A stretch of DNA of 64,000 nt from Malania oleifera (Eukaryota > Streptophyta > Magnoliopsida > Santalales > Ximeniaceae). Positions 1 through 54,871 of this stretch are shown here, piece by piece; the stretch's first letter is position 1, and each line of letters starts with the position of its first letter. Location: positions 96,495,025 through 96,559,024 of the forward strand of contig NC_080423.1 in assembly GCF_029873635.1 (NCBI RefSeq), read 5' to 3'. Position numbers and translations under genes: made by a program. Under the pieces are notes generated by a model. It was not told the origin of the DNA, did not search any database, and saw only the letters and a list, made by a program, of their open reading frames with translations.

Positions 1-453
1 TTCCAACGCCATGTCTCTAGAGGATGAGGGTTCTTCTTGGAAATTTATGGATGGGGATGCTTGTGATGGCTCATTTTCGAAAAGTCTAAGTGACGTTGAA
101 ACTACATCGAGAAGTCCACTCCTTAACAAGCCTATTAGTTCCTCATGAACCCACTCAACATACACTATGAATACAAAATTTCAAGAAAATGAATAAAAAA
201 GAAAAAATATAATAATTAGTTCCTGCAAAAGAAAGAACATGTTACTACAGTTATATAATAGTTCAGGTGGTAACACCGTCCATGGAAAACAAGGAACGTA
301 ATACAAATAACTGTGCAAAAAAATTAAATAAATATATCATAGTTAGACCAGTGGCAGTAGAAAACCAGCCTTGTAATGTACATCTATATAGATATATAGT
401 ATTATACCCTTTTTTTCTCCAAACTTACACAATCCTCGCAACGGCGCAAAAAA
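1..453 (-). pseudogene. Athila-like gag 5' end and leader (copy A), cut by window edge
   Basis: Read on the minus strand, positions 1-160 match the amino end of the gag region seen complete at 46652-47062. Positions 161-430 match its untranslated leader. A primer binding site resembling the tRNA-Asp type (GCGCCGTTGC core) lies at 432-449, next to the LTR end at 454. Most of gag lies outside the window. Many small indels relative to copy B show decay. Confidence 0.7.
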
Positions 454-1765
454 TGCTTGTCATTTTATTTTGTTCATCATTGTCCAATTCCCAAGCGTAG
501 GAAAATTCCATTGTCAAGCAAAGTAATCTTGGAGTCCCGAGGTCATTTCCACAAGGATTCAATTGGGAAGTTTAAGAGTCCGTACGTCACAGATTAACTC
601 AGAGTGAGATGTGTGGGGATTGATTTTAATGAATACAACTATCACTTGATTATAACAATTTAATTAAAGCGCTAGGCTTTAGATTTCATCCTAATCTCAT
701 CAATGGTAATCAAATCTCACATCTTTATAACTCAACCAACATCAATATACCTATTGAACTTGATCGAAAAATATATCAATTGAAATGCATAGATCTAACA
801 AAAATTGTTGATTAATGTCAAATGAAAATATTTTAGCAAACTTTTCGAATATAAGAACAAAAAGCATTGGTTGTAGCAAGATTTAACTTGTCTACAATCA
901 ATCAAGAAGTTTACAAAACTAAAAGTTTTTAGAAAAAGATCATTGAACATTAATCAATTTTAAACATAAAATACTTGAAGACTGAGGTGAGAATTACCAA
1001 TAAAGGGATGTAGGACTCCACCCTTAGCCTAACTTGAAATTTAGTTGGCCATTAGAACGAAAAGAAGAAATACTTAAAATAAATACTTCTGAATGTTTAC
1101 AAGGAAATGAGAGAGAGAATACAAGAAAATGAGGTAGCTCCTCCTTTTTAAGGCTAACACAAACCTCTTATTTATAGGTTGAAAAACTACTCCCTCCACT
1201 CCAAAACCTAACACAATTTATTAGTTACACTCCTATACCTACCACAAACACCTCCACCTACCAAAATGGTAGTTGCACTCCTTATGTTGTTGAAATTTAT
1301 TGTTTAATCTCGTCACCTTTCTTCCAGCTCAAGTTTGGACAGCTAAACATTGTAATTTGGACTTCCTCGTGAAATGTAAATTTGTAGGGCTTGAAGTCTT
1401 TTTTGCAATGAAACCAAGTTTGCATAAATTGGATAACCAAGTCAAAGGTTATGACTGATTTACCAAAATTGCAGAAAACTGCTACATTACTTCAATTGAC
1501 CCAAATTAAAGCACTCTTGGATGTTATTCAATTCTTCCAAACATCGTTCCTTACTTCACAAATTAGTACTTTGAATCTTTAAAGTCTTTTTAGCCATTCC
1601 ATACTCCACACAAGGGCTAATCATTATTTATTGAAATTTACTTACAAATGACAAAAATCACACAATAAGTTTTATATGCATGTTACGTAGATGATTTAAC
1701 TTATTTATGTGCACTAAGATGGCGTATAAATGTTCATAAATATGCAATATTATGTACTAATCACA
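454..1765 (-). mobile_element. Athila-like LTR, copy A
   Basis: About 1.31 kb, with TG/CA termini. On the minus strand it begins TGTGATTAGTAC at 1765 and ends at 454 beside the primer site. It is preceded on the minus strand by a polypurine tract (AAGTTCGGGGG, 1766-1776). It matches 47360-48702 almost throughout. Its pol-side and gag-side neighbours are both internal sequence, so it sits between the 3' half of one element and the 5' half of another. No gene lies within it. Confidence 0.75.
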
Positions 1766-3867
1766 CCCCCGAACTTGCACATTGCTAGTCCCTAGCAATC
1801 AAAATAATTTTAAAGAAAACTTCAAATAAAGTACAAAATTAGAAAATAAAGCCACTTTCGTAGGGAAAAACGATTGCATTTAGCGCATGCAACAAGCCTT
1901 TAAACCCCTAGGTTCCCCCTAGTGGACGAGTTAAGTCTCGTGCGGGCTTGTAGAGATGATACCCACAAACATCTTCCATGCTGTCAAAAGAAAATAGAAA
2001 TGACTACAGTAAAAATAAAAAGAAAAGAACAACAAAAAATAAAATAAAATAAACTACTACTACCTCAAAACAAAAAATAAAACTTAAAACAAGCACTCCC
2101 TTATCCAAGTTATGAATTTTAAACTAGCCCAATAAATAGAATGCTCAATTAATTAATTTACTTATAAATAATACAAAGTTTTAGAGAAAAACTCAAATGT
2201 ATCAATCCAACTCTCGATGTGTAAGGGAATTTAGCCATTCAAAATAATTCAAGTTATCCAAATGCATATGAATTTAGATCATTCCATTTTTGAGTGTTGA
2301 CTTCAAGACCTTACCATGGATTCTCTCAAAAATAAAACCTCTCATTGAAAATAGGGTAAACATCCACCCAAGAACTCGTGTGAACAAGAGTATTTGACTA
2401 GCAATTTCAAGTATAATTCACATGAATAGAAAAATGGCACAGATGGAAACAAGTCTCAAAAAATTAGTAATGAATTACAATATTGATAAGTGGCATGTTA
2501 GCGGCACATGATTCATTAAAATTATTCAACATTGAAACACACGGCAATTCTTAGAATCAAAAAGGATTTTCATTGGTTGTAATGTAATTCGGGTAAGAAG
2601 GAAAGGAAATCAAAATTGTGATGCCTTTTAATGTGGCTTAGGACACTACCTATGACGATCACAAATTCTAACCTATCCAAACACATAGTTAAACACCCAA
2701 ACATAAAATGGGATTGAAGAGAACACACCATACAAGGTTGTAAACCACAATCTTCAAGAAGCTATTGCGCGAGAGGGCTACAAATGGGGCATTAAATACG
2801 GCACCAACGTGCTAATTATAAAGGGTATGCCTTGAGTTTTCTTTTCTTTTTTTTTGTTTTTCTTCTTCTTCTTTTTTTTTTTTTTGAACGAACTCTTACC
2901 CAGTCCTATGTTCCTTCAACGTTTACAAGCCACTACCAATGATATCCATCCAACATTGCCAACCCTTGAACAATATTTACCCATAAAAGATTTCCCTAAG
3001 CTGGCCAAGAATGGGAAAAACACTAATGGCTCAAAAAAATGGTACAAATGATATTGAAAGTTAGAAGAATTAAGGCTCCAATTTTCAAGAAGGCCTAGGA
3101 TCATGTTCTATAAATTGCCATGATTCAGTATTGAATAATAATAAGGCTTATATATATGTCACTAACATTGGAAAATTTATGTATTGAAAAATTGAATTAA
3201 AGTTACCCCCAATTGAAAGATAGGCACAAATATATCAAGAAGGTTTAAGTCTCCACTCGATTTGTAAGGATTTCATTCACAAGCATTATTAACTCAAATA
3301 TGTTTCAAATGGCTTGTAGATATGCATGAGTGAGATGCCAATTTGATGATTAAGCATGTCTCAAACAAAGTATTACACTAAGTCTATGAATCACATAAGA
3401 GCATACTAGAAATCAAACAGAGTTTAAATTCACTCATCAAAAAGTCTTCTCTCTTTCTCACTTTTTTTTTCAAAAATAGAAAAAAAAAATTGAATGATTG
3501 ATATCTCCACACCGCCGAACTTAAATTATGCGTTGCCCTCAATGTATATAGATGAAATACGAAGAAAAGATTTGGGAGAGTGAGGAGAAGGTATCACCTT
3601 GAGAATGAATCTACGACATATCTACAATTAATGGGTTAGAAAACAGACAAAACACCAAAATCAAAGTAAATGTCTGGGCTGCGCACGCCGGCAATCTTAT
3701 CCTGACAACAAATTTGAGAAACTAGGAAAGAAAGCCTTTATTTGATGAGGTTTTTCTCTGTCCTTCCAGATTTGAATGATCTACCTGCAACCAACACAGA
3801 CAATGGGATAAGGAGACAGATTATCCACCCTTTCAAAAAGGTCTGGAATATGAGATGTAATTGTGCC

Positions 3868-3874
3868 TATAAAT
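3868..3874 (+). promoter_or_regulatory. TATA box for the antisense ORF, copy A
   Basis: TATAAAT about 100 bases before the ATG at 3970, on the strand opposite to gag-pol. The same motif is kept at 50788-50794 in copy B at the same spacing. Function as a promoter is inferred from motif and spacing only. Confidence 0.4.
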
Positions 3875-3969
3875 GGAAGTGAATGCACAAGGGTTAGGAA
3901 CTCAAGACATCAGTTTGATCTTGCACTCCAAAATTTCCTAACTTCTCTTAAAGACTCTCAATCATCCCT

Positions 3970-4424
3970 ATGGCAGGATCATCTTCCAACCCAATTCTGG
4001 ATCTGAATGTGGCACCAGATGTGACAACCAGTCCTAATGAGCTACTAAGATATATCCCTGGTCTATCTTATTTTTCCCCTCAACTCCAAGGTGATGTGAT
4101 GAGGACTGAAATGGTAATGGCCACAATATCCGATACAAGTGCAGCTTCCCATGCGATTTCTTTGAGTGCTCAAGTGGTCACTTCGATATCTCACTTGACC
4201 CAACGTCTATAGAGTCGAAACACTACTGTGAACCGCCTCCAAAATGAGATTTCCTTTCTGCAGCAGAAATCCTGAGAAGACCAACAAAAAATAAAAGACT
4301 TGCGGCAAGAAAATAAAGAGCTAAAGCGGAGGTCAATGAACTAAGGAAACTGGTGAAAAATTACTCCAACGATCTTGGGCTTAGGGTAGTAGGGCTGGAC
4401 GAAAGTTGGGAGCATTTCCAGTAG
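3970..4424 (+). pseudogene. Antisense extra ORF of Athila-like element, coiled-coil protein with DLNxxP motif (copy A)
   Basis: This ORF runs against gag-pol, downstream of integrase. The amino part (first 80 residues) is hydrophilic and contains DLNVAP, which fits the plant EAR repression motif DLNxxP. The carboxy half is rich in K, E, Q and L in heptad-like spacing and predicts a coiled coil. In this copy the frame has a TAG at codon 81 (CAG in copy B), a TGA at about codon 104 and a one-base deletion near 4330. The final TAG at 4422 is shared with copy B. Copy B lacks the first three lesions, so the common ancestor probably had an open frame of 151 codons. Extra ORFs, some antisense, are known between pol and the 3' LTR in several plant gypsy lineages. 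I do not recognise this protein family. A function in repression is inference from one short motif. Confidence 0.55.
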
Positions 4425-4825
4425 GAACATAAATGACTCAAAGTTATGGAGTAAAGAAAGGGCAAGACCTCCTGCTTTTCAACTTGAGGGGGGAGGCATG
4501 ACAGAGATTCGGTCTAAGGGTCTTCTTTTTTTTTTGCTCTTTTTTTTTTTTTTTGGCACAAATAGACCAAGTACCAAGGTGTGTAAACCTCTCCCCCCAA
4601 CTTGAAATGTACATTTTCCTTAAAAATGTGTATTTTCCTTATTGTCCAAAGTGATGGAATGATGCAAACCTGTGAAAGGGGTTAGAAAGAATACGAGAGA
4701 ACAAGAACAATTAAAAGAAAAGAAAAAAAATAAAAATAAAAATACAAGAACATAAAAATAAAATAAAGAAAATGAAATATATACAAGACCACGAGACTAA
4801 ATGTGGTCTAAGTTGAGGAGAGGTC

Positions 4826-6930
4826 CTAGTAAACTGGATCCACCAATTCCTCTCCAATGCTAACACGAGGAAAATCTTTTAAAAATGGTTTTAGACGTTG
4901 CCCATTTACCTTGAAAACATTACCATCTTTGGGATTTTCAATATCCACAGTGCCATGAGGGTAAACCGTCCTTACTATGTAAGGACCTATCCAACGGGAT
5001 CTTAGCTTACCTGGAAACAAGTGAAGCCTAGAATCGTACAATAAGACTTTTTGGTTAGGTTCAAATTGTCTCCTCACAATATGTTCATCATGATAACCCT
5101 TTACCTTCTCTTTATAAATTCTAGAGTTCTCATAAGCATCTCTTCTTAATTCTTCAAGTTCATTTAGTTGCAAACGACGATGGTCACCAACCATTCCAAG
5201 ATTGGAATTCAAAGTTTTAATGGCCCAGCGGGCTTTATGTTCCATTTTCACAAGTAAATGGCAAGTCTTACCATAAACTAGCCTATAAGGAGACATACCC
5301 AAAATAGTTTTGAAAGCAGTGCGGTATGCCCAAAGCGCAGCAACTAATCTCAAGGACCAGTCTTTACGGTTCGGGTTTACCATTTTTTCAAGAATAATTT
5401 TAATCTCCCTATTAGCCAATTCCACTTGCCCATTAGTTTGCAGGTGATAGGCCGTTGAAATTTTATAAGCGATACCATATTTTTTCATTAAAGTTTCAAA
5501 AGATCTATTACAGAAATGTAAGCCGTCATCACTAATGATTGCTTCAGGCATCCCAAAACAAGATAAAACATTTTTAAAAAAAAAAACTTAATCACTACCT
5601 TGTGATTGTTAGTTCTCGTTAGAATAGTCTCTACCCATTTGGATACATAATCCAATGCTAAAAGAATGTACAGATAGCCAAAGGAGAAGGGGAAAGGACT
5701 CATAAAATCGATGCCCCAACAATCAAAATTTTCAATAATCAAAAAAGGGTTTAAGGGCATCATATTTCTATGTGTGATCCCTCCTAATATTTGGCATATG
5801 TCACACCGTTTGCAAAATTCATGAACGTCTTTAAAAAGAGTGGGCCAGTAAAAACCACTTTGTAAAATTTTTGCAGTGGTTTTTCTTGAAAAGAAATGCC
5901 CACCATAGGTTCCACTATGATAGAATGAGATGACACCTTGAGTCTCTTCATTTGGCATACATCTTCTCAAAATCTGGTCTGGACAATATTTAAACAAGTA
6001 TGGGTCATCATAAAAGAAACGTTTGACCTCAGCTAGAAATTTTTTTTCTATCTTGGGCATTCCAATGCAATAGAAGTTGCCTAAACACGAGATAGTTAAC
6101 AATGTCAGCGTACCAAGGTAGGTTCACCACAAGGAACAAATGTTCACCCGAGAAACTATCTCTGATAGGGATGTGCTGTAGAGGGTTATCAAATACCAGT
6201 CGGGACAAATGATCAGCCACAACATTTTCAACTCCTTTCTTGTCTTTAATAATTAAATCAAATTCTTGAAGGAGTAAGATCCACCGGATGAGCTTTGGCT
6301 TAGCATCCTGCTAAGAGAGCAGATACTTGAGCGCAGCATGATCTGTAAAAACAACAATAGGTGAACCAATGAGATATGACCGAAACTTGTCCAGTGCAAA
6401 AACTATTGCTAGTAACTCTTTTTCTGTGATAGTGTAATTCATTTGTGCATCATTAAGAGTTCTACTAACGTAGTACACCACGCAAAACTTATTATCTCTC
6501 CTCTACCCTAGCACCGCTCCAATGGCATAATCACTTGCATCACATATAAGTTCAAAAGGCATCTTCCAATCTGGTGGTTGCATTATAGGCGAAGAAATTA
6601 ACATTTTTTTTAGTTTTGAAAAAGCCGCTTCACATGCATTTGTCCACTCAAATGGAACATCCTTAGCAAAAAGGTTGCACAAAGGATGTGCAATGACACT
6701 GAAATCTTTTATAAACCTTCTATAAAAACCTGCGTGTCCAAGGAAGGACCGCACGTCCTTGATGCAAGTTGGTGTAGGCAAATTTGAAATAATTTCCACC
6801 TTGAACTTGTCTACCTCTATACCCTTAGCAGAAACAATGTGGCTCAACACAATACCTTGTGTCACCATAAAATGACATTTTTCCCAATTTAAGATGAGAT
6901 TTTTCTCCTCACATCTAGTGAGGATTTGGG
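4826..6930 (-). pseudogene. Athila-like pol fragment: end of RT, RNase H, integrase (copy A)
   Basis: In minus-strand order there is the end of RT (LNWEKCHFM near 6870; GFYRRFIKDF near 6720), RNase H (CDASDYAIGAVLG near 6520; ADHLSRLVF near 6200), and integrase. Integrase shows a zinc-binding amino end, core segments with CWGIDFMSPF (5720), ISDDGLHF (5530) and [14 protein letters not shown] (5430, with its Glu), and a carboxy end with [10 protein letters not shown] (4880). These sequences are typical of the Athila lineage. Frameshifts near 5500 and 6060 and stops near 6310 and 6506 break the frame. The upstream part of RT is missing because the CACTA-like sequence begins at about 6931. Confidence 0.85.
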
Positions 6931-7089
6931 GATTTTAGTCAGACTATTAGTGATGATTTTAAAACCGTCACTAAAACTCTTAAAACTGTCACTAGTAGGC
7001 TGTTATTAGTGACGGTTCTCCTAAACTGTCACTAATAGTCTATCATTTAAAACTAAAATTAAAAATATTGTACCAATTAGGAGTGAGCA

Positions 7090-8113
7090 TGCATAATTTC
7101 GAGAAACCCGAATTCACCGAATAAAGAGACCAATTTCAGTCAATTCGGTTCAGTCAATAAATAGGGTCGGTTCGATTCATAGGTTATGATTTTACCAATT
7201 TTTGGTTCATCGGTTATCGATTCGATTAACCGAATTAATAATTAATTATAAATTTAATATAAAGTAATGCTTAAAGCTACTCTGGAGTGTTTTGATAATC
7301 ATTTAGTCACTAATTTAAATTTTTTATTTTATTAATAATAGAATTAATGGATTAATTAGCTGTTTAACTAAGCTGAATGATTAGTGACAGTTGATGAAAA
7401 CCGTCACAAATATAAAGACTATTACTGACGATCTTTCTTCTTAGACAATATATAATAGCAACATTTCCTATTTGTCCACATGCTACAAAGATGGTCTCAT
7501 ACTGACTCATCTAAATTGTAATCATCTTCACGAGCAACCCACCCATGCACACACCGACATGGCTGTTGCAAAATGAATCTCATTCCGGCTTAACAACGGC
7601 TGATACTAACCTCGAAATCCTTCGCTCAGATAGCTAGCTCCTGGTAATCCCTATATTCGCCTGGTTCACTATCAATGACATCTCTCCCAAATTTTTTCTA
7701 TCCACTATGTTAAGAACAATAATCTCAGTCCATTGCCAAACATATAAATCTTTCCTTCAGATTTGAAAGAGGTTACTTCTATTAACTAGGAAAAGTAAGA
7801 AAAGATTTTCATGATCGACCTGATTCATTTAAGAAGCTAAAACTAAAAATGAGTAATGCTTACTTGAAACCTTGGCACAATACTACAAAGTCTCTCTCAA
7901 AGAAGCTGAAAAAATATTTCTCAGATGGTGAAAGTACTAGAACTTCATTGGGGGACAAGTTATATAATTAATATGATGTGTATGGGCTCTGGTCCCATAA
8001 AACCTAGGACAAGTTCTGAATTGTAATCATCTTAATTCCATGAACAGTTTCAAAAGATCTCTCAAACTAGCTCAATTGCATAATTAAAAATCACAAATTA
8101 ATGAAGCATACAC
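7090..8113. other. CACTA-internal sequence without recognised gene
   Basis: AT-rich sequence between the left subterminal motifs and the AGO4 fragment, matched at 54005-57738 in copy B (there split by a solo LTR). It has one pair of CACTA-type inverted motifs at about 7380-7410. On the minus strand, 7500-7700 looks exon-like but has no family I recognise. It does not continue AGO4 past the MID-coding exon. Confidence 0.4.
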
Positions 8114-11100
8114 CTTGGCATTGATCTTGAGTAGAACATTTGTAAGATACGGTCGATAACTCTAGTAGGAGCAATGCATTGAGTGACAATTCCAAAATCG
8201 GCAAGATTCTTTCACTTCCAATGACCTTAAACATTAGATAGATTCATTAGCACCAACCAAAAATTAACTTTATAAATACAAAAAAAACTAGCCATAACCA
8301 TAAAAATTGGAGTTCTTCCTCCCCTAAAGAAGGCAAAGAAGGAATTTTGGAGCTCCGGGAAGTTTAGATTGTATATTTTCAAACATTTTCTCCACTTTAA
8401 CAATAGGTGGAGCCCATCTAGACTGAGGGTTCTCTTCAAATATATCGAATGGAGGTTCAATGACCTACAGAACACATGACAAAGAACTTCTATTAATCTC
8501 AACTCTTATATTGTAGAAAACATAATAATAAAACTTACAATTCCTTTCATTTCTCCACATTTGATTAGATCTCTCACAAGACCACGGATATCATATCCAG
8601 CTAAGAAATTTACAACAGCCCAATGTTTAATCTTTACTTGCTTTACTAGTTTCTAAAACAAAGCACAAAGAATATTGTGAGATCAGTTGAACTAAGATCC
8701 TAATATGACAGAACATAAGGAGAAGCACCTTATCGTTGAAATTCCATCTCCCATTTTGAGGGAAGAAATCCTCTCCATTTCCTACTTTCAACTGCAATAA
8801 AACAAAATAAGATCAAATAAGATACAAAACCAAGCTTTGCATTCCATGTAAGGGAAGGTAAAGTTAAAATTCAATCTGTACGTACAACTAAAATAATTTT
8901 ACAACCTATTTCAATATTTCATTTAAATGAAAAACATACGCACCCTGGGTGCCGATAGAACCTGACCTTCTACTTGAGTAACTGGGAATTAATTGAGACC
9001 TCGCAAGAACGTAGCATGGGCCCAGCATCATAATTGTTGATTTTTAAAGCCTTCTAGAAACTTTTGAAGTAGTGACCAAAAATTTAAGCAAATCATGCTC
9101 TGTATTACATCATCAGTTATAATTTCAGTCAAGACACCTACATCACCCAAAACTTTGATCCTTTTTTTGGGGTTTTTGTCTTGATTTCTCCAACTAGAGA
9201 AGCCAAATTTGTAGGGTGCTTAGAGCTTTTGCATACTGTTGCAATGAAACCAACGAACAAAGCTATTAAAAGAAAAGTGCCCACCTGTTTAAACCATATA
9301 TACAACAATCATTAGGCAAATCTTTCAAACAAAAAGAAATAAAAAACCACAACAATTCACCTCAAGAGGAATGAACGTGTGTAACGCCCCGAACCCCTAA
9401 ACTCAAGTCCAATGCGTTATACCTGATAATATCCTAATGATCCATAAATCATAATATACACAATGGAAAATATAAACATAATCTCCATATATAATACCAT
9501 AATATCGTAATACCAGAGTTTACTATTCCTATCTAAATTCCATATAATTCATCCATCACCTGTATTTCCATAAATCTACATAACTCCCAAAACATTTCAA
9601 TATTTTCATAACCATTCCTTACTCAATATCCTTAAAACATAACGACATAAAACATATATACTTAAACTTAATACAATCCCACAGTATATCAAAAATATAC
9701 CCTTTCTCTTTTACAATCCTCAAAAGACTATAAACCCTCAAGCTCCCTAAGCCCGACCTCGAGGATGTCCTGAAAAAGAAATAATCATATTCGGGTGAGA
9801 CACATCTCAGTAAGGGAAGAAATATACATATTAAAACAACGTGTGGCTAACATGAGGTATATGGATATCATTTTAAATACATTTGCAAATCATTAGCGTA
9901 ACACTAAAAACATTCTCTAAACCTAATCAATCACAAGCAAAGATTTAACCCACGAGATTACTTAAGGATAGGGGTGATTACCCGTCCATACAAGTAGCAC
10001 CCCTCTGCTCTGATACATAAGCAACCCGAAGGTCACTACTAAAGCATACCAGAGCACTCACCTTACTCATTAAGCCCTCAAGTATTAGATTAATCTCGTA
10101 CTCACACAGTTCAACAATGGTTTACTATCAAATGCCCTAAGGATAGGAAAATCTACCCATACAAGTAGGTTCCCTCTGTCCTAGTACGTTATATAGCTAC
10201 TATCACATCTAAAGTTACTAGTGCACTCGCCTTACTCAGCAAGCTCTCAGGCGAAGAGTATACCCCGCCCAATCATAACATGTTCTACATATATAGATAC
10301 TTCTAATATCATAATACATTATTCTTTCTGTCATTATTCTTTCTGTCATTATTCAATCATACACATATGTTCATGTTCATAGCTAAACATAACATTGCAT
10401 TTCACTTCAAGTGACTCTTTCCATTTATATCATTCACATTTCATATTTCATTCCATGATCATTACATTTCCATTACATTGCCTTTTCCTTTCTTTCCTTC
10501 GTACTGTAGCTAGTCTTTGGCCATCATCAGTTAGTCTACAGCTCCTTTTAGCTGTCATCAGTTAGTTTACATAGAAATGTGTTAGATCTGCTAATATGGC
10601 TTTCTTTCAGCTGTCTTACATTTACATGATTGCATTAACATACACAAGCAGCATAGTCCATAACATATTTTATTCTTAATACTTTACTTACTTAGTCTGC
10701 ATCTCATACATTTAACATATATTTGCACAAAATTTACATTTACTCATGCTACACAATTTAATAGTAAAATTCATACATATTCCTGTAAAATAGGCCAATC
10801 AACTCTTAATGTTCATATACTGAAAATATATCGTTCATTTCTTACATAATAATCATGAAAACATTATTCACTTTCAATGATTCATTTTCACATATACATA
10901 GCTATATATGCAATCCTAAGCTCAGAAAACATAATTTACATGATTGGCATTTTATACCCAAATGAAAATTCATTTACATATATATAACATGGTCCATTTT
11001 ATTTAATTCATAACAACCTGAATTAATATATTATTTCCCCTTACCTGACTTCCGAACTATGCTGGTGGGATCCCCGAACTAATACCCACAGTGTTTACTT

Positions 11101-11843
11101 GGACCCTGAACCAAAAATCCTATTTTAATTAAAATAAATTCCAGCTAACTCAAATCTTAAGAAAAACACTTATTTGCTACTTTCTAGGCTTCAAATAACA
11201 TTATTCATTAAGAAAATCCCAAAATAATTCACTTACCATGATTTTGGGATGTTTCCCAAACCTCTCCAAACAACGATTAGCTCCTACAGCCTTACAGAGA
11301 ACGATCCTACGAACTTCGTGGTGGTTTCAGATTGTCAAACTGGGTCAAATCCAACCCAAAATCAAAGAAAGAAGGCTAGGAAACCGTTTTAGAGAGAGAG
11401 AGGGAAGAAGGATCTCGAATTCTCGCTGAAAATGAAAGAAAACTCTACTTATAGGCAGGGCTTCATCGATGAGACACGTGGGTTTGTCGACGAGAAAATA
11501 CATTCATCGACGAGGGACTGAGTTTGTCAACGATCTCTAGAAGAACTCTCGTCGACGAAGACAGGACATTCGTCGATGAGACCTACTATTCCTCTTCTAA
11601 TTTCTTTCCTTTTCCCCTCATTATCCATTAATCCATTTCATTTATGATATTTCCTAATTATTTTATAGTTTTAATTCTCCAGGTCATTACAACGTGGGTC
11701 GCTTTGGCTTCCTTACATTAATACATGGAAGATCTGCTGAATATCGCATTTCTAAGTGATGGTAATTAACAAAATAATCGTAAACGGTCACTTCAAGTGC
11801 TTCATCTTCTCCATCCTTTCCACCTCTCTACTTCAACAAAAAC
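8114..11843 (-). pseudogene. AGO4-like: ARGONAUTE4-like gene fragment (PAZ, L2, MID) captured in the CACTA-like element, copy A
   Basis: Seven exon-like blocks, minus strand. Block 1 is 11692-11843 continued at 9361-9379 (VTVYDYFVNY, RYSADLPCINV, KPKRPT), split by a solo LTR. Block 2 is 9141-9284 (LCSLVSLQQYAKALSTLQ, EKSRQKPQ). Block 3 is 8944 to about 9050 (NYDAGPMLRSC, EGQVLSAPR). Block 4 is 8729-8791 (NGEDFFPQNGRWNFN). Block 5 is 8539-8652 (WAVVNF, GLVRDLIKCGEMKGI). Block 6 is 8299-8464 (PPFDIFEENPQSRWAPP, LPGAPKFLLCLL). Block 7 is 8114-8225 (KNLADFGIVTQCIAPTRV, YLTNVLLKINAK). Most introns are short (about 75-150 bases) and keep GT/AG ends, so genomic DNA was captured rather than a processed transcript. 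This covers the PAZ end, linker and MID of an AGO4-clade protein. The amino domain and the PIWI catalytic domain are absent. In-frame stops in blocks 6 and 7 and frameshifts in blocks 2, 3 and 7 make it a pseudogene. Clade assignment is from remembered AGO4 motifs and is firm at that level. Confidence 0.9.
9380..11691 (-). mobile_element. Solo LTR of a gypsy-type element inside an AGO4 exon
   Basis: 2312 bp with TG/CA ends (on the minus strand it starts TGTAATGACCTGGAG at 11691 and ends GGGGCGTTACA). It is flanked by a perfect 5-bp target duplication ACGTG (9375-9379 and 11692-11696). Removing it together with one ACGTG restores an uninterrupted AGO4 exon reading through KRPT. Internal marks on the minus strand are a TATA-like TATAAGT at 11447-11453 and, upstream of it, a cluster of TCGTCGACGA-like palindromes (11461-11580). 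No internal retrotransposon sequence is present. The short ORF at 11238-11429 is not a gene. Confidence 0.9.
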
Positions 11844-12229
11844 CTACAACAAAGGGAGAATAAGACCACTCAATTAAATTCACTAATTCAATATTTTCTT
11901 AGTTTTGTGAAGGAAAAATAGAGATCATGGTAACTGAAACATAAGAACCCCAAAAAAGTAACAGAATCCATAACAGGGAATGAAAAACTTATCTCGAGGA
12001 ACTGCAAAAAAAATTTCAGCAATGACAAGAAGAAGAAGAAGAAGAAGAAGAAGAACCTAACGGAATGAACTCAGGCGAGCGGCAATGGTTGCAGGGGGGT
12101 TTGACCCGGGAGATTGGGAAAGGAGGGAGGGGGGAAATGAGGGAGAAATGCGAGGAAAAATGGAGGCAGATTGGGAAATCGTGTGAAGAAGGTAAATTTA
12201 ATAGGTTAGGGTATTAGTGAAGAATCCTC
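11844..12229 (-). other. 5' UTR-like sequence upstream of the AGO4 fragment
   Basis: On the minus strand this is CT-rich, has a (TTC)n run (12027-12054 on the plus strand as AAG) and several intron-like tracts, resembling a plant leader with an intron. It is not recognisable as AGO4 coding sequence. It may be a second captured fragment or the leader belonging with the AGO4 piece. Nothing else is seen. Confidence 0.3.
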
Positions 12230-13190
12230 TAAACCGTCAATAATACCCTATTATTAGTAACGAATGCTCTAAACCGTCACTAATATTCTTAAATAAATTA
12301 TTTTTATATTTTTAAAATCAAAACACTATTAGTGACGGTTTATGAAACTGTCACTAATAATAGACTAATAGCAACGAATCTTGTGAACCGTCACTAATAT
12401 AGTTAAATAAATCATTTTCATATTTTTTAAATAAAAACTATTAGTAACAATTTTATAAACCGTCACTAATAATTGGCTATTAGTGACGAATCCTCGGAAC
12501 CGTCACTAATAGTGTTAAATAAATTATTTTTATATTTTTTAAATAAAAAAACTATTAGTGATGGTTCCTAAAACTGTCACTAATAATTGGCTATTAGTGA
12601 CGACTACTCTGAACTGTCACTAATAGTGTTAAATAAATTATTTTTATATTTTTTAAATAAGTAAATTATTAGTGACGGTTCCTAAAACCGTCACTAATAA
12701 TTGGCTATTAGTCACAAATCCTCTAAACCGTCACTAATAGTGTTAAATAAATTATTTTTTTATTAATACAATAATAGTAGTGACGGTTACTTAATCGTCA
12801 CTAATAATTGACTTTTAGTGACAAATATAATCCGTCACTAATATCCTAAGAATCGTCGCTAATATTTTTCTGGAATAATTTCTACTCGAAAAATGGTTTC
12901 CCGCGATAGATTGAGCAGGAAAATCGATTTTTAGTGATAAAATTATTAGTGACGATTTTGAAATCGTCACTAATAGTGTCGTATTAATGACAGTTGCTAA
13001 AACTGTCACTAATATGACACTATTAGTGATGAAATTGAATCCGTCACTAATGCTTTCGTCACCAAAAATCAGTTTTTTTATAGTGACAGCCATTATAGTC
13101 ACCAATTTATAAGCGTCACCAAATCGTTACTAATAATTAATAGTGATAGTTTTCTATTATTAGTGACGGTTTAAAAGTGTCACTAAAAGT
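12230..13190. repeat. CACTA subterminal array, 114-bp tandem units of paired inverted motifs
   Basis: Roughly two dozen copies of TTAGTGACGG or its inverse CCGTCACTAA. Between about 12230 and 12800 they form about five tandem units of some 114 bp, each holding two motif pairs separated by an AT-rich spacer (anchor GGCTATTAGT at about 12474, 12589 and 12703). Beyond 12800 the spacing is shorter. Subterminal repeats of this kind bind the TNPA-type protein in CACTA elements. The ORF at 12815-13105 is only a by-product of the repeats. Confidence 0.75.
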
Positions 13191-13205
13191 CTTCTTTTTG
13201 TAGTG
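13191..13205 (-). repeat. CACTA terminal inverted repeat
   Basis: Minus strand CACTACAAAAAGAAG, the outer end of the CACTA-like element. A near-identical end lies at 25016-25031. Both are followed by the same 0.7-kb sequence. Confidence 0.75.
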
Positions 13206-13925: not shown

Positions 13926-13946
13926 GCAAAACCTCCCACCCACCTC

Positions 13947-13947
<1 letters not shown>

Positions 13948-13989
<42 letters not shown>
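13948..13989 (+). repeat. (ATT)n microsatellite
   Basis: About fourteen uninterrupted ATT units. From here to the glucosidase stop codon the only other feature is a compound TA/GA microsatellite. Confidence 0.95.
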
Positions 13990-14136
13990 GCTCTGTGCTT
14001 ATTATCCTTCCTTCTCCTTTTAGATTCTTTCTTCCTTCTCTTTTAAAAGTATTCACTGATTCACTTTGTTAATTACCAAGAATCTTTTGTGAGTCAAATC
14101 ATGGAATTACAACTTTTATTTAGCAACAAGCAATGG

Positions 14137-14141
<5 letters not shown>

Positions 14142-14222: not shown

Positions 14223-14225
<3 letters not shown>

Positions 14226-45397: not shown

Positions 45398-47062
45398 TTA
45401 GGTTATAAACTGTTGCATTTGATCCTCCAAACTTCTCTTATGAAAGGGTTGGTATGGTGGAACATTTTGTTGCCCTGGAGGGGCATATGCTTGAGGATGA
45501 TTTTGAGCATACCCCAGAGAACCTTGACTTTGATGGAATTGGGCTCCTTGCCCTTGAAAATTTTGTGGGGCATGGTGATTGAAAATTTGAGCAGGAAATG
45601 AAGGATTAGCCACCTCTTGATTCTTCCAACTAAAGTTAGGGTGATTTGACCACCCTTTGTTGTAAGTTTCAGAGTATGGATTGTTGAAGAGCCTTTTGAA
45701 TTGATTCAAAGAATTTACACTTACCTAACCACTAATCACTTCTTTTGGGGAGGGAATGGTGGGACACTCACTAGTGGAGTGTTCCTGGGTCTCACAAATT
45801 GCACAAACCTTTTCCAATCTAGGTCCAGTGGTAACCTCATTTACCTTTTTCATTTGCAAAACCTCCATTTGCCTTGTATGGTTTGCATTCTTAACTAACA
45901 TATCGTCCTTTTCTTTGAGTTGGTACATCCCTCCTCTACTCTGAATACCAAGGTGCCTTAATGTTACAACGGATTGAGAAGTGCCCCAAGTTTGGGCTCG
46001 TTCCACAAAAACATCAAAGTAATATAATGCATCCTCGGGTGATTTGTTTAAAAACTCGTCATTGCACATCAAGTCTATATACTAGCAATTCTTAGGTGAA
46101 AGCCCTTGCATGAAAAAGTTTCCAATTTGCTAAGTATCTAGACCGTGATGTGGAATGGTTTGTAAAAGCTCCTTGAAGCATTCCCACACTTGATGAAATT
46201 CTTCATTAGGTTTTTCAGAAAAATTTTGAATTTGATTGGTCAAATCAATGGGTTTTTGTGTAAGAAAAAACTTCTTCAAGAAGTTTCTTTGTATTTCTTC
46301 CCAAGATGTAATAGAATGAGGTTTAAGGGAATATAAACATGACTTAGCTTTATCCTTTAAAAAAAAAGGGAAAAGCTTAAGTTTAACCATATCTTCAGGG
46401 ACAACGGGGTTAGTAAGAGTTGAACAAACCTATTCAAATTCCTTCAGATGTAAATAAGGGGACTCTGAATCCATCCCATGAAATGTGGGCACCATCTTAA
46501 TCATTTCAGGTTTCAACACAAAGTGGTGAGCTTGCATTGGTAAACGAATATAAGAGGGCTCACTAGACCTTAGAGGATTGAAATAATCTCCTAATGTTCT
46601 TGCATGTTGAATGGCGGGAACATTAGGGACATTTTGTTAATTTGGGGCATATTAAAATTTTTGAAAATTTTGAAATTGTTGTGCCCCCACTCCTTCTTGG
46701 TCTTGCATATTGCGTTGATTTCCAAAGAAACGCAGTTGCCCCACTTGACCTTGGCGAAAGGGTTCGTTGTTGTAACCCCCTTGATTAACTTGAGTGAATA
46801 AAGGGTTGGCTTCTCTATATTGGGGTGGAGCATTCCTAGGAGAATGAATTGGGCCTCCATTTCCATCCCTTTCATGTGGCGGTTCTTGGTTATTTTGGGG
46901 TTCCAACGCCATTGGTCCTCTAGAGGATGAGGGTCCTCTTTGGAAATTTATGGATGGAGATGCTTGGATGGGCTCTTTCGAGAATTCTAAGTGACGTTGA
47001 ACTAATCTAGAAGGCCACTCCTTAACAAGCCTATTAGTTCCGTCATGAACCCAACTCAACAT
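45398..47062 (-). pseudogene. Athila-like gag (copy B)
   Basis: Amino part at 46652-47062. Gag core at 46130-46390 (LFPFFLKDKAKSCLYSL, SWEEIQRNFLKKFF, HQVWECFKELL). Nucleocapsid at 45725-46072, with an intact zinc knuckle CAICETQEHSTSEC. Then the NPYSETYNKGWSNHPNFSW segment typical of Athila (45640). Several stops and frameshifts separate the pieces. The order and spacing fit one former polyprotein continuing into the protease at 44962. Confidence 0.88.
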
Positions 47063-47337
47063 ACACTATGATAACAAAATTCAAGAAAATGAAGAAAAAA
47101 TAATAATAATTAGTTCCTGCAAAAGAAAGAAAATGTTACTACAAGTTAATATAAATAGTTCAGGTGGTACAACCGTCCATGGAAAACAAGGAAACGTAAA
47201 TACAAATAAATGTGCAAAAAAAATAAATAAATATATAATAGTTAGTACAAGTAGGCAGTAGAAAAACCAGCCATTGTATGTACATATATATAGATATATA
47301 GTATTATACACTTTTTTTTCTCCAAACTTACATAGAA

Positions 47338-47356
47338 TCCTCGGCAACGGCGCAAA
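47338..47356 (-). other. Athila-like primer binding site
   Basis: The minus strand reads TGCGCCGTTGCCGAGGA, close to the tRNA-Asp-complementary site of Athila elements (TGGCGCCGTTGCCGGGGA), a few bases after the LTR end at 47360. Confidence 0.75.
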
Positions 47357-47359
47357 AAA

Positions 47360-48702
47360 TGCTTGTCATTTTATTTTGATCATCATTGTCCAATTCCCAA
47401 GAGTAGGAAAATTCCATTGTCAAGCATAGTAAATCTTGGAGTCCCAAGGTCATTTCCATAAGGATTCAATTGGGAAGTTTAAGAGTTTGTACGTCACAAA
47501 TTAACTTAGAGTGAGATGTGTGGGGATTGATTTTAATGAATACAACTATCACTTGATTATAACAATTTAATTAAAGGGCTAGGCTTTAGATTTCATCCTA
47601 ATCTCATCAATGGTAATCAAATCTCACATCTTTATAACTCAACCAACATCAATATACCTATTGAATTTAATTGAAAAATATATCACTTGAAATGCATAGG
47701 TCTGACAAAAATTGTTGATTAATGTCAAATGAAAATATTTTAGCAAACTTTTCGAATATAAGAACAAAAAGCATTGGTTGTGGCAAGATTTAACTTGTCT
47801 ACAATCAATCAAGAAGTTTACAAAACCAAAAGTTTTTAGAAAAAGATCATTGAACATTAATCAATTTTAAACATAAAATACTTGAAGACTGAGGTGAGAA
47901 TTACCAATAATGGGATGTAGGACTCCACCCTTAGCCTAACTTGAAATTTAGTTGGCCATTAGAACAAAAAGAAGAAATACTTAAAATAAATACTTCTGAA
48001 TGTTTACAAGGAAATGAGAGAGATAATACAAGAAAATGAGGTAGCTCCTCCTTTTTAAGGCTAACACAAACCTCTTATTTATAGGTTGAAAAACTACTCC
48101 CTCCACTCCAAAACCTAACACAATTTATTAGTTACACTCCTATACCTACCACAAACACGTCCACCTACCAAAATGGTAGTTGCACTTCTTCTCCAACCAA
48201 AATGATAGTTGCACTCCTTATGTTGTTGAAATTTATTGTTTAATCTCGTCACCTTTCTTCCAGCTCAAGTTTGGATAGCTAAACATTATAATTTGGACTT
48301 CCTCGTGAAATGTAAATTTGTAGGGCTTGAAGTCTTCTTTACAATGAAACCAAGTTTGTATAAATTGGATAACCGAGCCAAAGGTTATGATAGATTTACC
48401 AAAATTGCAGAAAACTGCTACATTACTTCAATTGACCCAAATTAAAACACTCTTAGATGTTATTCAATTCTTCCAAACATCGTTCCTTACTTCACAAATT
48501 AGTACTTTGAATCTTTAAAGTCTTTATAGCCATTCCATACTCCACACAAGGGCTAATCAATTATTTATTGAAATTTACCTACAAATGACAAAAATCACAC
48601 AATAAGTTTTATATGCATGTTACGTAGATGATTTAACTTATTTATGTGCACTAAGATGGCGTATAAATGTTCATAAATATGCAATATTATGTACTAATCA
48701 CA
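47360..48702 (-). mobile_element. Athila-like LTR, copy B
   Basis: 1343 bp with TG/CA ends, matching 454-1765. On the minus strand it is preceded by pol and the 3' region and followed by the primer site and gag. It is thus a single LTR joining the 3' half of one element to the 5' half of another. Confidence 0.75.
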
Positions 48703-50787
48703 CCTCCGAACTTGCACATTGCTAGTCCCTAGCAATCAAAATAATTTTAAAGAAAACTTCAAATAAAGTACAAAATTAGAAAATAAAGCCACTTTCATAG
48801 GGAAACACGATTGCATTTAGCGCATGCAACAAGCCTTTAAACCCCTAGGTTCCCCCTAGTGGACGAGTTAAGTCTCGTGAGGGCTTGCAGAGATGATACC
48901 CACAAACATCTTCCATGCTGTCAAAAGAAAATAGCAATGACTACAGTAAAAATAAAAAGAAAAGAACAACAAAAAATAAAATAAAATAAACTACTACTAC
49001 CTTAAAAAAAAAAAAATAAAACTTAAAACAAGAACTCCCTTATCCAACTTATGAATTTTAAACTAGCCCAATAAATTGAATGCTCAATTAATTAATTTAC
49101 TTATAAGTAATACAAAGTTTTAGAGAAACTCAAATGCATCAATCCAACTCTCAATGTGTAAGTAAATTTAGCCATTCAAAATAATTCAAGTTATCCAAAT
49201 GCATATGAATATAGATCATTCCATTTTTGAGTTTTGACTTCAAGACCTTACCATGGTGTCTCTCAAAAATAAAATCTCTCATTGAAAATAGGGTAAACAT
49301 CCACCCAAGAACTCATGTGAACAAGAGTATTTGACTAGCAATTTCAAGCATAATTCACATGAATAGAAAAATGGCACAGATGGAAACAAGTCTAAAAAAC
49401 TGAGTAATGAATTACAATATTGATAAGTGGCATGTTAGCGGCACATGATTCATTAAAATTATTCAACATTGAAACACACGGCAATTCTTAGAATCAAAAA
49501 GGATTTTCATTGGTTGTAATGTAATTCGGGTAAGAAGGAAAGGGAATCAAAATTGTGATGCCTTTCAATGTGGCTTAGGACACTACCTATGACCATCACA
49601 AATTCTAACCTATCCAAACACATAGTTAAACACCCAAACATAAAATGGGATTGAAGAGAACACACCATACAAGGTTGTAAACCACAATCGTCAAGAAGCT
49701 ATTGCTCGAGAGGGCTACAAATGGGCATTAAAAACGGCACCAACGTGCTAATAATAAAGGGTATGCCCTGAGTTTTTTTTTTCTTCTTCTTTTTTTTTTT
49801 GAACAAACTCTTACCCAGTCCTATGTTCCTTCAACGTTTACAAGCCACTGCCAATGATATCCATCAAACATTGCCAACCCTTGAACAATATTTACCCATA
49901 AAAGATTTCCCTAAGCTGGCCAAGAATGGGGAAAACACTAACGGCTCAAAAAAATGGTACAAATGATATTGAAAGTTAGAAGAATTAAGGCTCGAATTTT
50001 CAAGAAGGCCTAAGATCGTGTTCTATAAATTGCCATGATTCGGTATTGAATAATAATAAGGCTTATATATATATGTCACTAACATTGGAAAATTTATGCA
50101 TTGACAAATTGAATTAAAGTTACCTCCAATTGAAAGATAGGCACAAATATATCAAGAAGGTTTAAGTCTCCACTCGATTTGTAAGGATTTCATTCACAAG
50201 CATTATTAACTCAAATATGTTTCAAATGGCTTGTAGATGTGCATGAGTGAGATGCCAATTTGATGATTAAGCATGTCTCAAAACAAAGTATTACACTAAG
50301 TCTATGAATCACATAAGAGCATACTAGAAATCAAACAGAGTTTAAATTCACTCATCAAAAAGTCTTCTCTCTTTCTCGCTTTTTTTTTTTTTCAAAAATA
50401 GAAAAAAATTTAAATGACTGATATCTCCACACCCCCAAACTTAAATTATGCATTGTCCTCAATGTATATAGATGAAATACGAAGAAAAGATTTGGGAGAG
50501 TGAGAAGAAGGTATCACCTTGAGAATGAATCTACGACATATCTACAATTAATGGGTTAGAAAATAGACAAAACACCAAAATCAAAGTAAATGTCTAGGCT
50601 GCGCACGCCGGCAATCTTATCCTGACAACAGATTTGAGAAACTAGGAAAGAATGCCTTTATTTGATGAGGTTTTTCTCTGTCCTTCCATATTTGAATGAT
50701 CTACCTGCAACCTACATAGACAGTGGGATAAGGAGACAGATTATCCACCCTTTCAAAAAGGTCTGGAATATGAGATGTAATGATACC

Positions 50788-50794
50788 TATAAAT
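50788..50794 (+). promoter_or_regulatory. TATA box for the antisense ORF, copy B
   Basis: TATAAAT 102 bases before the ATG at 50890, as in copy A. Confidence 0.4.
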
Positions 50795-50889
50795 GGAATT
50801 GAATGCACAAAGGTTAGGCATTCAAGACATCAGTTTGATCTTGTGCTCCAAAATTTCCTAACTTCTTTTAAAGACTCTCAATCATCCCT

Positions 50890-51345
50890 ATGGCAGGATC
50901 AGCTTCCAACCCAATTCCGGATCTGAATGTGGCACCAAATGTGACAACCAGTCCTAATGAGCTACTAAGATATATCCCTAGTCTATCTTATTTTTCCCCT
51001 CAGCTCCAAGGTGATGTGATGAGGACTGAAATGGTAATGGCCACAATGTCTGATACAAGTGCAGCTTCCTATGCGATTTCTTTGAGTGCTCAGGTGGTCA
51101 CTTCGATATATCATTTGACCCAACGTTTGCAGAGTCGGAACACTACTGTGAACCGCCTCCAAAATGAGATTGCCATTCTGTAGCAGAAATCCCAAGAAGA
51201 CCAACAAAAAATAAAAGACTTGCGGCAAGAAAATAAAGAGCTGAAGCGAGAGGTCAATGAACTAAGGAAATTGGTGAAAAATTACTCCAACGATCTTGGG
51301 CCTAGGGTAGCAGGGCTGGAGGAAAGTTGGGAGCATTTCCAGTAG
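50890..51345 (+). pseudogene. Antisense extra ORF of Athila-like element (copy B)
   Basis: 151 codons, antisense to pol, with one in-frame TAG at codon 98 (CAG in copy A) and no frameshift. DLNVAP is kept. The carboxy half (about residues 75-140) is a strong coiled-coil candidate (KIKDLRQENKELKREVNEL). Over the first 81 codons the copies differ by about seven replacement and six silent changes, which looks near neutral. Identity of the protein is unknown. Confidence 0.55.
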
Positions 51346-51745
51346 GAACATAAATGACTTAAAGCCATGGTGCAAGGAAAGGGCAAGACCTCTTGCTTTT
51401 CAATTTGAGGGGGGAGGCATGACAGAGATTCGGTCTACGGGTCTTTTTTTTTTTTTTTCTCTTTTTTTTTTTTCACAAATAGACCAAGTACCAAGGTGTG
51501 TAATCCTCTCCCCCCAACTTGAAATGTACATTGTCCTTAAAATATGTATTGTCCTTATTGTCCAAAGTGATGGAATGACGCAAACCTGCGAAAGGGGTTA
51601 GAAAGAATACGGGAGAACAAGAACAATTAAAAGAAAAGAAAAAAATAAAAATAAAAATACAAGAACATAAAAATAAAATAAAGAAAATGAAATATATACA
51701 AGATCACGAGACTAAATGTGGTCTAAGTTGAGGAGAGGTTCTGGT

Positions 51746-53845
51746 AAACTGGATCCACCAATTCCTCTCAAATGCTAACACGAGGAAAATCTTCTAAAAA
51801 TGGTTTTAGACGTTGCCCATTTACCTTGAAAACATTACCATCTTTAAGATTTTCAATATCCACAGTGTAATGAGAGTAAACCGTCCTTACTGTGTAAGGA
51901 CCTGTCCAACAGGATCTTAGCTTACCTGGAAACAAGGAAGCCTAGAATTGTACAATAAGACCTTTTGGTTAGGTTCAAATTGTCTCCTCGCAATATGTTC
52001 ATCATGATAACCCTTTACCTTCTCTTTATAAATTCTAGAGTTCTCATAAGCATCTCTTCTTAATTCTTCAAGTTCATTTAGTTGCAAACGACGAAGGTCA
52101 CCAGCCATTCCGAGATTGGAATTCAAAGTTTTAATGGCCCAGCAGGCTTTATGTTCCATTTCCATAGGTAAATGGCAAGTCTTACAATAAACTAGCCTAT
52201 AAGGAGACATACCCAAAATAGTTTTGAAAGTAGTGTAGTATGCCCAAAGCACATCAACTAATCTCAAGGACCAGTCTTTACGGTTCGGGTTTACCGTTTT
52301 TTCAAGAATAATTTTAATCTCCCTATTAGCCAATTCCACTTGCCCATTAGTTTGCGGGTAATAGTCCGTTGAAACTTTATGAGCGATGCCATATTTTTTC
52401 ATTATAGTTTTAAAAGATCTATTACAGAAATGTAAGCCGCCATCACTAATGATTGCTTTAGGCATCCCAAAACAAGATAAAACATTTTTAAAAAAAAAAC
52501 TTAATCACTACCTTGTGATTGTTAGTTCTCGTTAGAATAGTCTCTACCCATTTGGATACATAATCCACCGCTAAAAGAATGTATAGATAGCCAAAGGAGG
52601 AGGCGAAAGGACCCATAAAATCGATGCCCCAACAATCAAAAATTTCAATAATCAAAAAAGGGTTTAAGGGCATCATATTTCTATGTGTGATCCCTCCTAA
52701 CATTTGGCATATGTCACACCATTTGCAAAATTCATGAACGTCTTTAAAAAGAGTGGGCTAGTAAAAACCACTTTGTAAAATTTTTGCAGTGGTTTTTCTT
52801 GAAGAGAAATGTCTCCACCATAGGCTCCACTATGATAGAATGAGATGACACCTTGAGTCTCTTCATTTGGCACGCATCTTCTCAAAATCTGGTCTGGACA
52901 ATATTTAAACAAGTATGGGTCATCATAAAAGAAACGTTTGACCTCAGCTAGAAATTTTTTTCTATCTTGGGCATTCCAATGCAATGGAAGTTGCCCAAAC
53001 ACGAGATAGTTAACAATGTCAGTGTACCAAGGTAGGTTCACCACAAGGAACAAATGTTCACCCGGGAAACTATCTCTGATAGGGATGTGCTGTAGAGGGT
53101 TATCAAATACCAGTCAGGACAAATGATCAGCCACAACATTTTCAACTCCTTTCTTGTCTTTAATAATTAAATCAAATTCTTGAAGGAGCAAGATCCACCG
53201 GATGAGCTTTGACTTAGCATCCTGCTAAGAGAGCAGATACTTGAGCGCAGCATGATCTGTAAAAACAACAGTAGGTGAACCAATGAGATATGACCGAAAC
53301 TTGTCCAGTGCAAAAACTATTGCTAGTAACTCCTTTTCTATGATAGCGTAATTCATTTGTGCATCATTAAGAGTTCTACTAGCATAGTACACCATGCAAG
53401 ACTAATTATGTCTCCTTTGCCCTAGCACCGCTCCAATGGCATAATCACTTGCATCACACATAAGTTCAAAAGGCATCTTCCAATCTGGTGGTTGCATTAT
53501 AGGCGGAGAAATTAACATTTTTTTTAGTTTTGAAAAAACCGCTTCATATGTATTTGTCCACTCGAATGGAACATCCTTAGGAAAAAGGTTGCACAAAGGA
53601 CGTGCAATGACATTGAAATCTTTTATAAACCTTCTATAAAAACCTGCGTATCCAAGGAAGGACCACATGTCCTTGATGCAAGTTGGTGTAGGCAAATTTG
53701 AAATTAGTTCCACCTTGGACTTTTCTACCTCTATACCCTTAGCAGAAACAACGTGGCCCAACACAATACCTTGTGTCACCATAAAATGACATTTTTCCCA
53801 ATTTAAGACGAGATTTTTCTCCTCACATCTAGTGAGGATTTGGGG
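51746..53845 (-). pseudogene. Athila-like pol fragment: end of RT, RNase H, integrase (copy B)
   Basis: Same domains as 4826-6930. Integrase core segments are [20 protein letters not shown] and [16 protein letters not shown]/RNase H shows FYRRFIKDF and CDASDYAIGAVLGQ. A one-base deletion near 51935 removes the integrase end, other frameshifts are near 52490 and 52700, and the RT is cut at about 53845 by the CACTA-like sequence at the same base as in copy A. Confidence 0.85.
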
Positions 53846-54336
53846 ATTTTAGTCAAACTATTAGTGACGATTTTAAAACCGTCACTAAAACTCTTAAAAC
53901 TATCACTAGTAGGCTGTTATTAGTGACGGTTCTCCTAAACTATCACTAATAGTCTGTCATTTAAAACTAAAATTAAAAATATTGTACCAATTAGGAGTGA
54001 GTGTGCATAATTTCGAGAAACTCGAATTCACTGAAATAAGCGACCAATTTCAATCAATTCGGTTCAGTCAATAAATAGGGTCGGTTCGATTCATAGGTTA
54101 TGATTTTACCAATTTTTGGTTCATCGGTTATCGATTCAGTTAACCGAATTAATAATTAATTATAAATTTAATATAAATGAATGCTTAAAGCTACTCTGGA
54201 GTGTTTTGATAATCATTTAGTCACTAATTTATATTTTTTATTTTATTAATAATAGAATTAATGGATTAATTAGATGTTTAACTAAGCTGAATGATTAGTG
54301 ACGGTTGATGAAAACCGTCACAAATATAAAGACTAT

Positions 54337-54596
54337 TGTAGACACCCTATTTTTGCCCTAGCCAAATAGAACAAAGGGTCCCCTCTTATTATTTTCATTA
54401 TTATTATTATTATTTTCAGTACTATTATTATTATTTATTTATTTTTGTTATTACTATTGTTTTTATTTTTATTATTATTATTTTGTTATCATTATTTTTA
54501 GCATTTTTATTATCATTATTACTATTATTATTATTATTATTTCTACTATCTTTATTATTAGTTTTACTATTATTATAATTATTTTTATTATCTTAC

Positions 54597-54649
<53 letters not shown>

Positions 54650-54831
54650 TTTACCATTATTAGTATTACTATTATTATTTTTATTCTTATTTATCTATCT
54701 ATCTATTATTATTATTTTCTCTATTATTAATATTACTTTTAGATATTATTTTACTATTATTATTGTTTCTATTATTATTTTATTATTATTATTTATTCTC
54801 AAATATTATTGTTATTATTATTATATTTAGT

Positions 54832-54871
<40 letters not shown>

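Follow-up and report, generated by a model that had tools for sequence, protein, structure and literature searches.

A decayed AGO4-clade gene fragment between CACTA-derived blocks in Malania oleifera

The AGO4 fragment and its decay

This work concerns a 64,000-nucleotide window of the Malania oleifera genome (contig NC_080423.1, positions 96,495,025 to 96,559,024, forward strand), in which the minus strand carries, at 8114-11843 and in the correct order, seven exon blocks from a gene of the AGO4 clade. AGO4 carries small interfering RNAs (siRNAs) that guide DNA methylation to transposons. The exons stand between two blocks of sequence derived from CACTA transposons, are interrupted by a solo long terminal repeat (LTR) and recur in part in a second copy within the window (copy 2, the first being copy 1). 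A preliminary description of this DNA had bounded the fragment at 11843 and 8114, which are indeed its first and last exon bases; the solo LTR in the PAZ exon, the absence of the left CACTA terminus and the second copy go beyond that description. The fragment is composed as follows; domain labels of single exons (PAZ end, linker 2, MID) are those that we presume, except where Pfam matched.

11692..11843, minus strand: exon A, 5' part (PAZ end), with an in-frame stop near its start
9380..11691, no strand assigned: solo LTR, 2,312 bp, TG...CA (plus strand TGTAACG...TTACA), splitting exon A (the PAZ exon)
9361..9379, minus strand: exon A, 3' part (FIPLE), past the LTR insertion
9142..9262, minus strand: exon B, with a stop common to both copies and a frameshift
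8944..9050, minus strand: exon C, with a frameshift
8729..8791, minus strand: exon D (LKVGNGEDFFPQNGRWNFNDK)
8539..8652, minus strand: exon E (linker 2 / MID)
8299..8464, minus strand: exon F (MID), with an in-frame stop in both copies
8114..8225, minus strand: exon G (MID end, ...YLTNVLLKINAK), with an in-frame stop in copy 1 only and a frameshift

A protein search with the exon peptides, in which 1,149 of 1,690 candidates passed and the best 120 of these 1,149 were examined, placed at the top P0001, a 911-residue M. oleifera 'protein argonaute 4-like' (E 9.3e-127, 85% identity across 93% of the query), the matched region being its residues 334-616. Among those best 120 matches, the runners-up share 77-79% identity and all argonautes that bear a number are 4, 4A or 4B, the remainder being hypothetical, unnumbered, unnamed or otherwise named. 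Entered as one broken query, the same peptides matched the Pfam families PAZ (E 5.6e-05), Piwi (0.0014) and ArgoMid (0.01), none of which reached its gathering cut-off, as well as solved chains of plant argonaute 10 (E 3.4e-07) and argonaute 5 (E 3.1e-04). When P0001 was aligned to the window by tblastn, residues 334-616 were recovered in order on the minus strand of copy 1, with residues 384-388, past the LTR, placed by eye, and residues 389-616 in copy 2. Agreement with P0001 reaches 225 of the 258 residues across the in-frame segments compared, a figure that leans high because stretches near breaks were excluded, and 11 runs of 8-18 identical residues add up to 128 residues. Protein search and tblastn thus bear out the view of the preliminary description that PAZ, linker and MID exons of an AGO4-clade protein lie in the right order on one strand; compared with plant AGO proteins, the best match is AGO4-like and no non-AGO family comes out on top. 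The fragment is without the N domain, the start of PAZ and the catalytic part of PIWI, and spans the end of PAZ, linker 2 and most of MID.

Introns are retained, and all 14 splice boundaries of copy 1 are GT or AG, as are the 12 that can be read in copy 2 (one more lies outside the copy and one at an alignment gap); the seven blocks had earlier been credited with mostly intact boundaries. The presence of introns leads us to reject a retrocopy. A functional AGO4-clade gene would encode N, PAZ, MID and PIWI in a single uninterrupted frame, and what is found here is a partial set of residues, stops, frameshifts and an LTR within an exon. The locus is therefore unable to encode an AGO protein. Since some stops are common to the two copies (exons B and F) and others are specific to one of them (exon G in copy 1; two additional stops in exon F of copy 2), decay predates the duplication and continued after it. 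The solo LTR in exon A is flanked by a target site duplication (TSD), ACGTG, at 9375-9379 and 11692-11696.

CACTA-derived blocks and a duplicated flank

Around the exons, and further along the window, lie the following segments, none with an assigned strand except the first.

1..6940, minus strand: truncated Ty3/gypsy element (Pfam RNase H and integrase; reverse-transcriptase end read by eye; annotation covers the part after 4800)
6941..7417: left-hand CACTA subterminal block with 7 matches to the motif, missing the outermost 13 bp of its terminus and abutting gypsy DNA
7418..8113: segment opening with the intron downstream of AGO4 exon G
11844..12205: segment opening with the intron upstream of AGO4 exon A
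12206..13205: right-hand CACTA subterminal array with 26 matches to the motif, and terminus CTTCTTTTTGTAGTG at 13191-13205
46901..61181: second copy of 1-11543, in two pieces of 94.7% and 94.5% identity, AGO4 block at ~57736-58998

The subterminal motif TATTAGTGACGGTT, allowing at most 2 mismatches, has 39 matches in the window for 0.46 expected, and all 39 are confined to three blocks adjoining AGO4 fragments (7 at 6945-7412, 26 at 12232-13171 and 6 at 53859-54326). Subterminal arrays of direct and inverted repeats, a feature of CACTA elements, are present, and four pieces fold with z of -3.1 to -8.6. On the right, an array of ~1 kb lies on the inner side of a terminus that ends in TAGTG at 13205, the next trinucleotide being TTC. 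It is the position at the end of the array, not the terminus motif itself, that carries weight. On the left, the first 78 nt of the block fit best on right-end terminal units, from base 14 onward and in mirror orientation (score 56 over 77 nt; next best 50 over 40 nt), which would make this block the truncated other end. Judged by these repeats, the left and right blocks appear to face outward, with the AGO4 exons inside.

With the LTR and a single TSD subtracted, the element would measure 3,948 bp. No transposase domain was found in the 10 scanned of its 14 stop-free pieces (at least 55 amino acids), nor in the other pieces of the window that were scanned, and the element is presumably unable to move on its own. 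Pack-CACTA elements are recognized by host coding DNA inside the transposon ends; here, seven AGO4 exons lie between two CACTA blocks with one terminus gone. The element is CACTA-derived and incomplete, not an intact member of the superfamily, and its earlier characterization as CACTA-bounded holds for the motif blocks on both sides and the right terminus and fails for the left terminus, which is lost. The possibility that 7418-8113 or 11844-12205 holds other captured genes was also considered and rejected, no credible Pfam family being seen (two matches above E 0.1 in one piece; for the pieces of 7418-8113 tested, no family with E < 0.05). A string upstream of exon A, ATGGATTCT, resembles the MDS start of P0001 and is too short to have meaning. 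As a separate observation, the terminal 34 bp of the CACTA element together with ~750 bp of flank (13172-13953) recur, with a gap, at 24997-25713, 12 kb away.

The gypsy element is cut at its junction with the left CACTA block, and copy 2 has the same junction. The shared gypsy flank and junction point to one segmental duplication as the source of both copies, not to a second insertion. Copy 2 ends at 61181, where sequence beginning TGTAGTGACC starts, and carries its own solo LTR of 2,706 bp (54337-57042, TSD ACTAT). The LTR family to which the latter belongs, beginning TGTAGACACCC and containing long (ATT)n tracts, occurs again from 62839 on. The identical order of the copies, their 94.5-94.7% identity and their spacing of 47-50 kb could also be expected of an assembly artefact in which two haplotypes were left unmerged. 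This is highly improbable because heterozygosity in M. oleifera is ~0.06% according to the part of the genome report available (PMC6377399), far under the 2.8-5.0% seen here, and copy 2 has a solo LTR and TSD of its own.

The copies have diverged by 4.46% in their gypsy portion and by 4.18% in the left CACTA block; for the AGO4 block the figure is 2.84%, and for the LTR 4.99%. Within the AGO4 block, 20 of 692 exon sites (2.9%) and 16 of 571 intron sites (2.8%) differ, the exon bounds in this count being approximate and departing from the final ones by a few bases. Exons and introns have decayed to the same degree: the AGO4 fragment decays neutrally. The C/T changes of the block affect 6 of 30 CG, 10 of 48 CHG and 9 of 371 CHH sites, giving a marked excess of CG plus CHG over CHH (16/78 versus 9/371, p 9.5e-08), while the gypsy part shows 88/495 versus 113/2,061. 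Such an excess is the mark expected of methylated DNA, and the locus has probably been methylated. It was also observed that CHH changes are commoner in the solo LTR (57/577, comparing 9381-11543 with the copy up to 61181) than in the AGO4 block (9/371; p 5.3e-06), which may reflect methylation of the LTR of the type laid down by RNA-directed DNA methylation (RdDM).

Origin of the fragment and its possible activity

We consider the locus to be probably the relic of a non-autonomous Pack-CACTA-like element of ~3.95 kb that captured AGO4 DNA, lost a terminus and decayed. A CACTA element would first have taken up seven AGO4-clade exons at the DNA level, introns included. Afterwards, presumably in this order, an LTR retrotransposon would have inserted into the PAZ exon and been reduced to a solo LTR, and the left terminus would have been lost at the gypsy junction. 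The locus would then have been duplicated together with its flank and have decayed neutrally since, probably under CG and CHG methylation. For Pack-CACTA elements, uptake has been proposed to occur when complementary termini are lost from adjacent elements and the two outermost ends are mobilized as a unit (PMC13317346, PMC8616336 and PMC8903248, in the portions available of these papers). Capture of this kind, with subsequent LTR insertion, left-end loss and duplication, agrees with the anatomy of the locus.

Several observations weigh against this reading. CACTA...TAGTG is not seen at both ends, each copy missing the outermost 13 bp on the left, and the element has neither a left terminal inverted repeat (TIR) nor a TSD pair. 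The placement of the left block as an outer end is only modestly ahead (56 versus 50), with a query start chosen from an earlier alignment; its part 6978-7040 fits internal units better, in forward direction (score 63), and orientation is a weak guide because the TATTAGTGACGGTT motif is palindromic. The terminus motif alone is hardly above chance in the window (16 versus 9.8 expected, with as many in 2 of 100 shuffles). Both 7418-8113 and 11844-12205 are left unexplained by a model of CACTA and AGO4 sequence. As the two copies are a segmental duplication, independent transposition with cargo is not supported, and the CG/CHG excess, equally clear in the gypsy part, is not specific to AGO4.

The missing left TIR and TSD, the 0.36 and 0.70 kb of unassigned DNA that separate the AGO4 exons from the CACTA blocks and the several local duplications in the window would all suit an ordinary DNA-level pseudogene, arisen by segmental duplication, as filler DNA or through another transposon such as a Helitron, to which the flanking CACTA remnants bear no relation. 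We regard this origin as unlikely, since within the 64 kb no such sequence is seen apart from these flanking blocks, which appear to point outward, and since several plants provide published cases of capture by CACTA elements. Insertion of a CACTA element into an AGO4 pseudogene is likewise unlikely with outward-facing blocks and AGO4 apparently inside. Capture by a CACTA element thus remains our preferred origin. Of the initial interpretation, an AGO4-clade, intron-bearing fragment between CACTA-derived blocks stands, and two termini, independent transposition and a siRNA or decoy function are not supported.

Could the fragment be active? The solo LTR might drive sense transcripts, or the locus might yield siRNAs, that act on the host AGO4 in the way that the CACTA-borne miR820 of rice acts on DRM2, which is a precedent for such a role. 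The LTR has a TATA-like site on the minus strand at ~11445-11453, directed at the exons (TATAAGTAG in copy 1, TATAAATAG in copy 2). It hints that the LTR reads in the direction of the AGO4 exons, so that sense transcripts of exons B-G are conceivable; this hint is weak because nine other TATA-like matches lie on the same strand of the AT-rich LTR. The 11 runs of identical residues, compared at the protein level, leave space for 24-nt matches with AGO4. Against activity, a scan of the fragment outside the LTR found none of 72 windows of 200 nt folding with z < -3 (lowest -2.3), although subterminal control windows gave z of -4.1 to -10.7, and Rfam at gathering scores returned no match in 6500-20000. 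A fold-back precursor like that of miR820 is absent from the captured piece, the lack of unusual folding indicates that this is not a miR820-like locus, and a microRNA-like precursor is rejected. Exons also decay as fast as introns. An active fragment is accordingly very unlikely, and a siRNA or decoy role is unsupported by the features seen in the DNA. The locus resembles a neutral relic of gene capture rather than a functioning weapon.

Genomic setting and relation to known captures

Beside the CACTA end, at 14375-19456, lies a largely complete GH1 beta-glucosidase gene on the minus strand, oriented like the AGO4 fragment. Its exon at 16991-17299 shows 100% identity to M. oleifera P0215 over 83% of 86 residues; among the matches listed, P0215 is the sole one at 100% (others 61-80%) and ranks ninth by E-value. 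Aligned to the window, P0215 gives 11 matches, 9 of them at 96-100% and the remaining two extending into introns. P0001 is listed on a contig of 151,837,026 bp and P0215, from a 10-member cluster, on one of 111,994,049 bp; the two large contigs being different, the intact AGO4 gene is probably not local and lies elsewhere, unless P0215 is encoded by a paralogous gene on a different chromosome. A full local AGO4 gene, which would have undone the initial interpretation, was looked for and is rejected for this window: across the whole 64 kb, tblastn of P0001 found nothing else with E < 1 outside the two AGO4 copies, and P0001 is on the other contig.

Other repeats surround the locus. An inverted pair of ~385 bp, 88% alike (30692-31076 and 35251-35634), appears by eye to consist of RNase H pieces of a long interspersed nuclear element, with reverse-transcriptase-like domains nearby; a Mutator-like reading of this pair was rejected, the 8-10 bp TSD not being found. 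A further local duplication of 85-90% identity links 23857-26899 and 32384-34447. Transposable elements make up 75.1% of the M. oleifera genome in one annotation, TIR elements 1.3% (PMC10199050, available in part).

The locus belongs to the known class of transposon-captured host gene fragments; as a CACTA element, it fails at the second terminus. With the Pack-CACTA elements of Arabidopsis, rice and maize it appears to share CACTA-type ends around host coding DNA and the lack of a transposase domain in the pieces scanned, but it is without the left TIR and the TSD and is a fossil, present as one duplicated pair within the window. Its size is near that of the non-autonomous lettuce element LsC1, 3,913 nt in the available part of the report (PMC8195511). 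Lettuce LsC2, in the same partial source, is also a truncated CACTA element with one TIR only and is hence inactive; it is a recent derivative of LsC1, whereas the element described here is old and bears AGO4 exons. In maize, gene fragments captured by Helitrons, Pack-MULEs and Sirevirus elements have been described as siRNA reservoirs, as far as the accessible text goes. The likeness lies in captured exons within a probably methylated transposon, which could yield siRNAs matching the donor gene, and the M. oleifera locus differs in being known here from its sequence alone.

The closest parallel comes from rice, where CACTA elements bear pre-miR820, which resembles OsDRM2 exon and intron sequence, OsDRM2 being repressed by miR820 (PMC3459959, available in part). 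There too a CACTA element holds a piece resembling a gene of the RdDM pathway, exon and intron together; the M. oleifera locus has AGO4 instead of DRM2, has no hairpin and no known small RNA, is decayed and is not known as amplified. A second, independent uptake of an RdDM gene by CACTA elements, with small RNAs from the AGO4 exons or LTR transcripts dampening host AGO4 and thereby easing transposon silencing, can be imagined by analogy and seems slightly less probable still than activity of the fragment in general. Gene capture by CACTA elements, which the preliminary description had called known, is well documented, the DRM2-like piece in rice included, in the literature at hand. In the accessible portions of the open-access literature on CACTA elements, gene capture and argonaute/AGO4, no report of a transposon-captured AGO4 was found; gene-capture papers, in those portions, name AGO4 or argonaute only as RdDM machinery or not at all, and the main text of a 2026 gene-capture review, as far as available, contains neither 'argonaute' nor 'AGO4'.

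A side observation concerns gene models of Castanea, Tanacetum and Salix (P0155, P0156, P0161, P0169, P0170, P0193, P0182 and P0184), in which AGO4 linker/MID exons are joined to Nek kinase, RuvB-like or WAT1 sequence; in Castanea, one AGO4 segment with a similar tail occurs in both kinase and RuvB-like contexts. AGO4 fragments may be dispersed or common in several plant genomes, or these models may be chimeras. A search for short AGO4-like proteins gave 85 matches, none of them named Malania, some being nameless.

To conclude, the presence of AGO4 exons in a transposon raises the question of whether captured silencing genes ever benefit the transposon. The available account of rice miR820 suggests that such a benefit is possible with DRM2. 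The locus described here adds AGO4 to the captured genes of the RdDM pathway, apparently as a neutral fossil.

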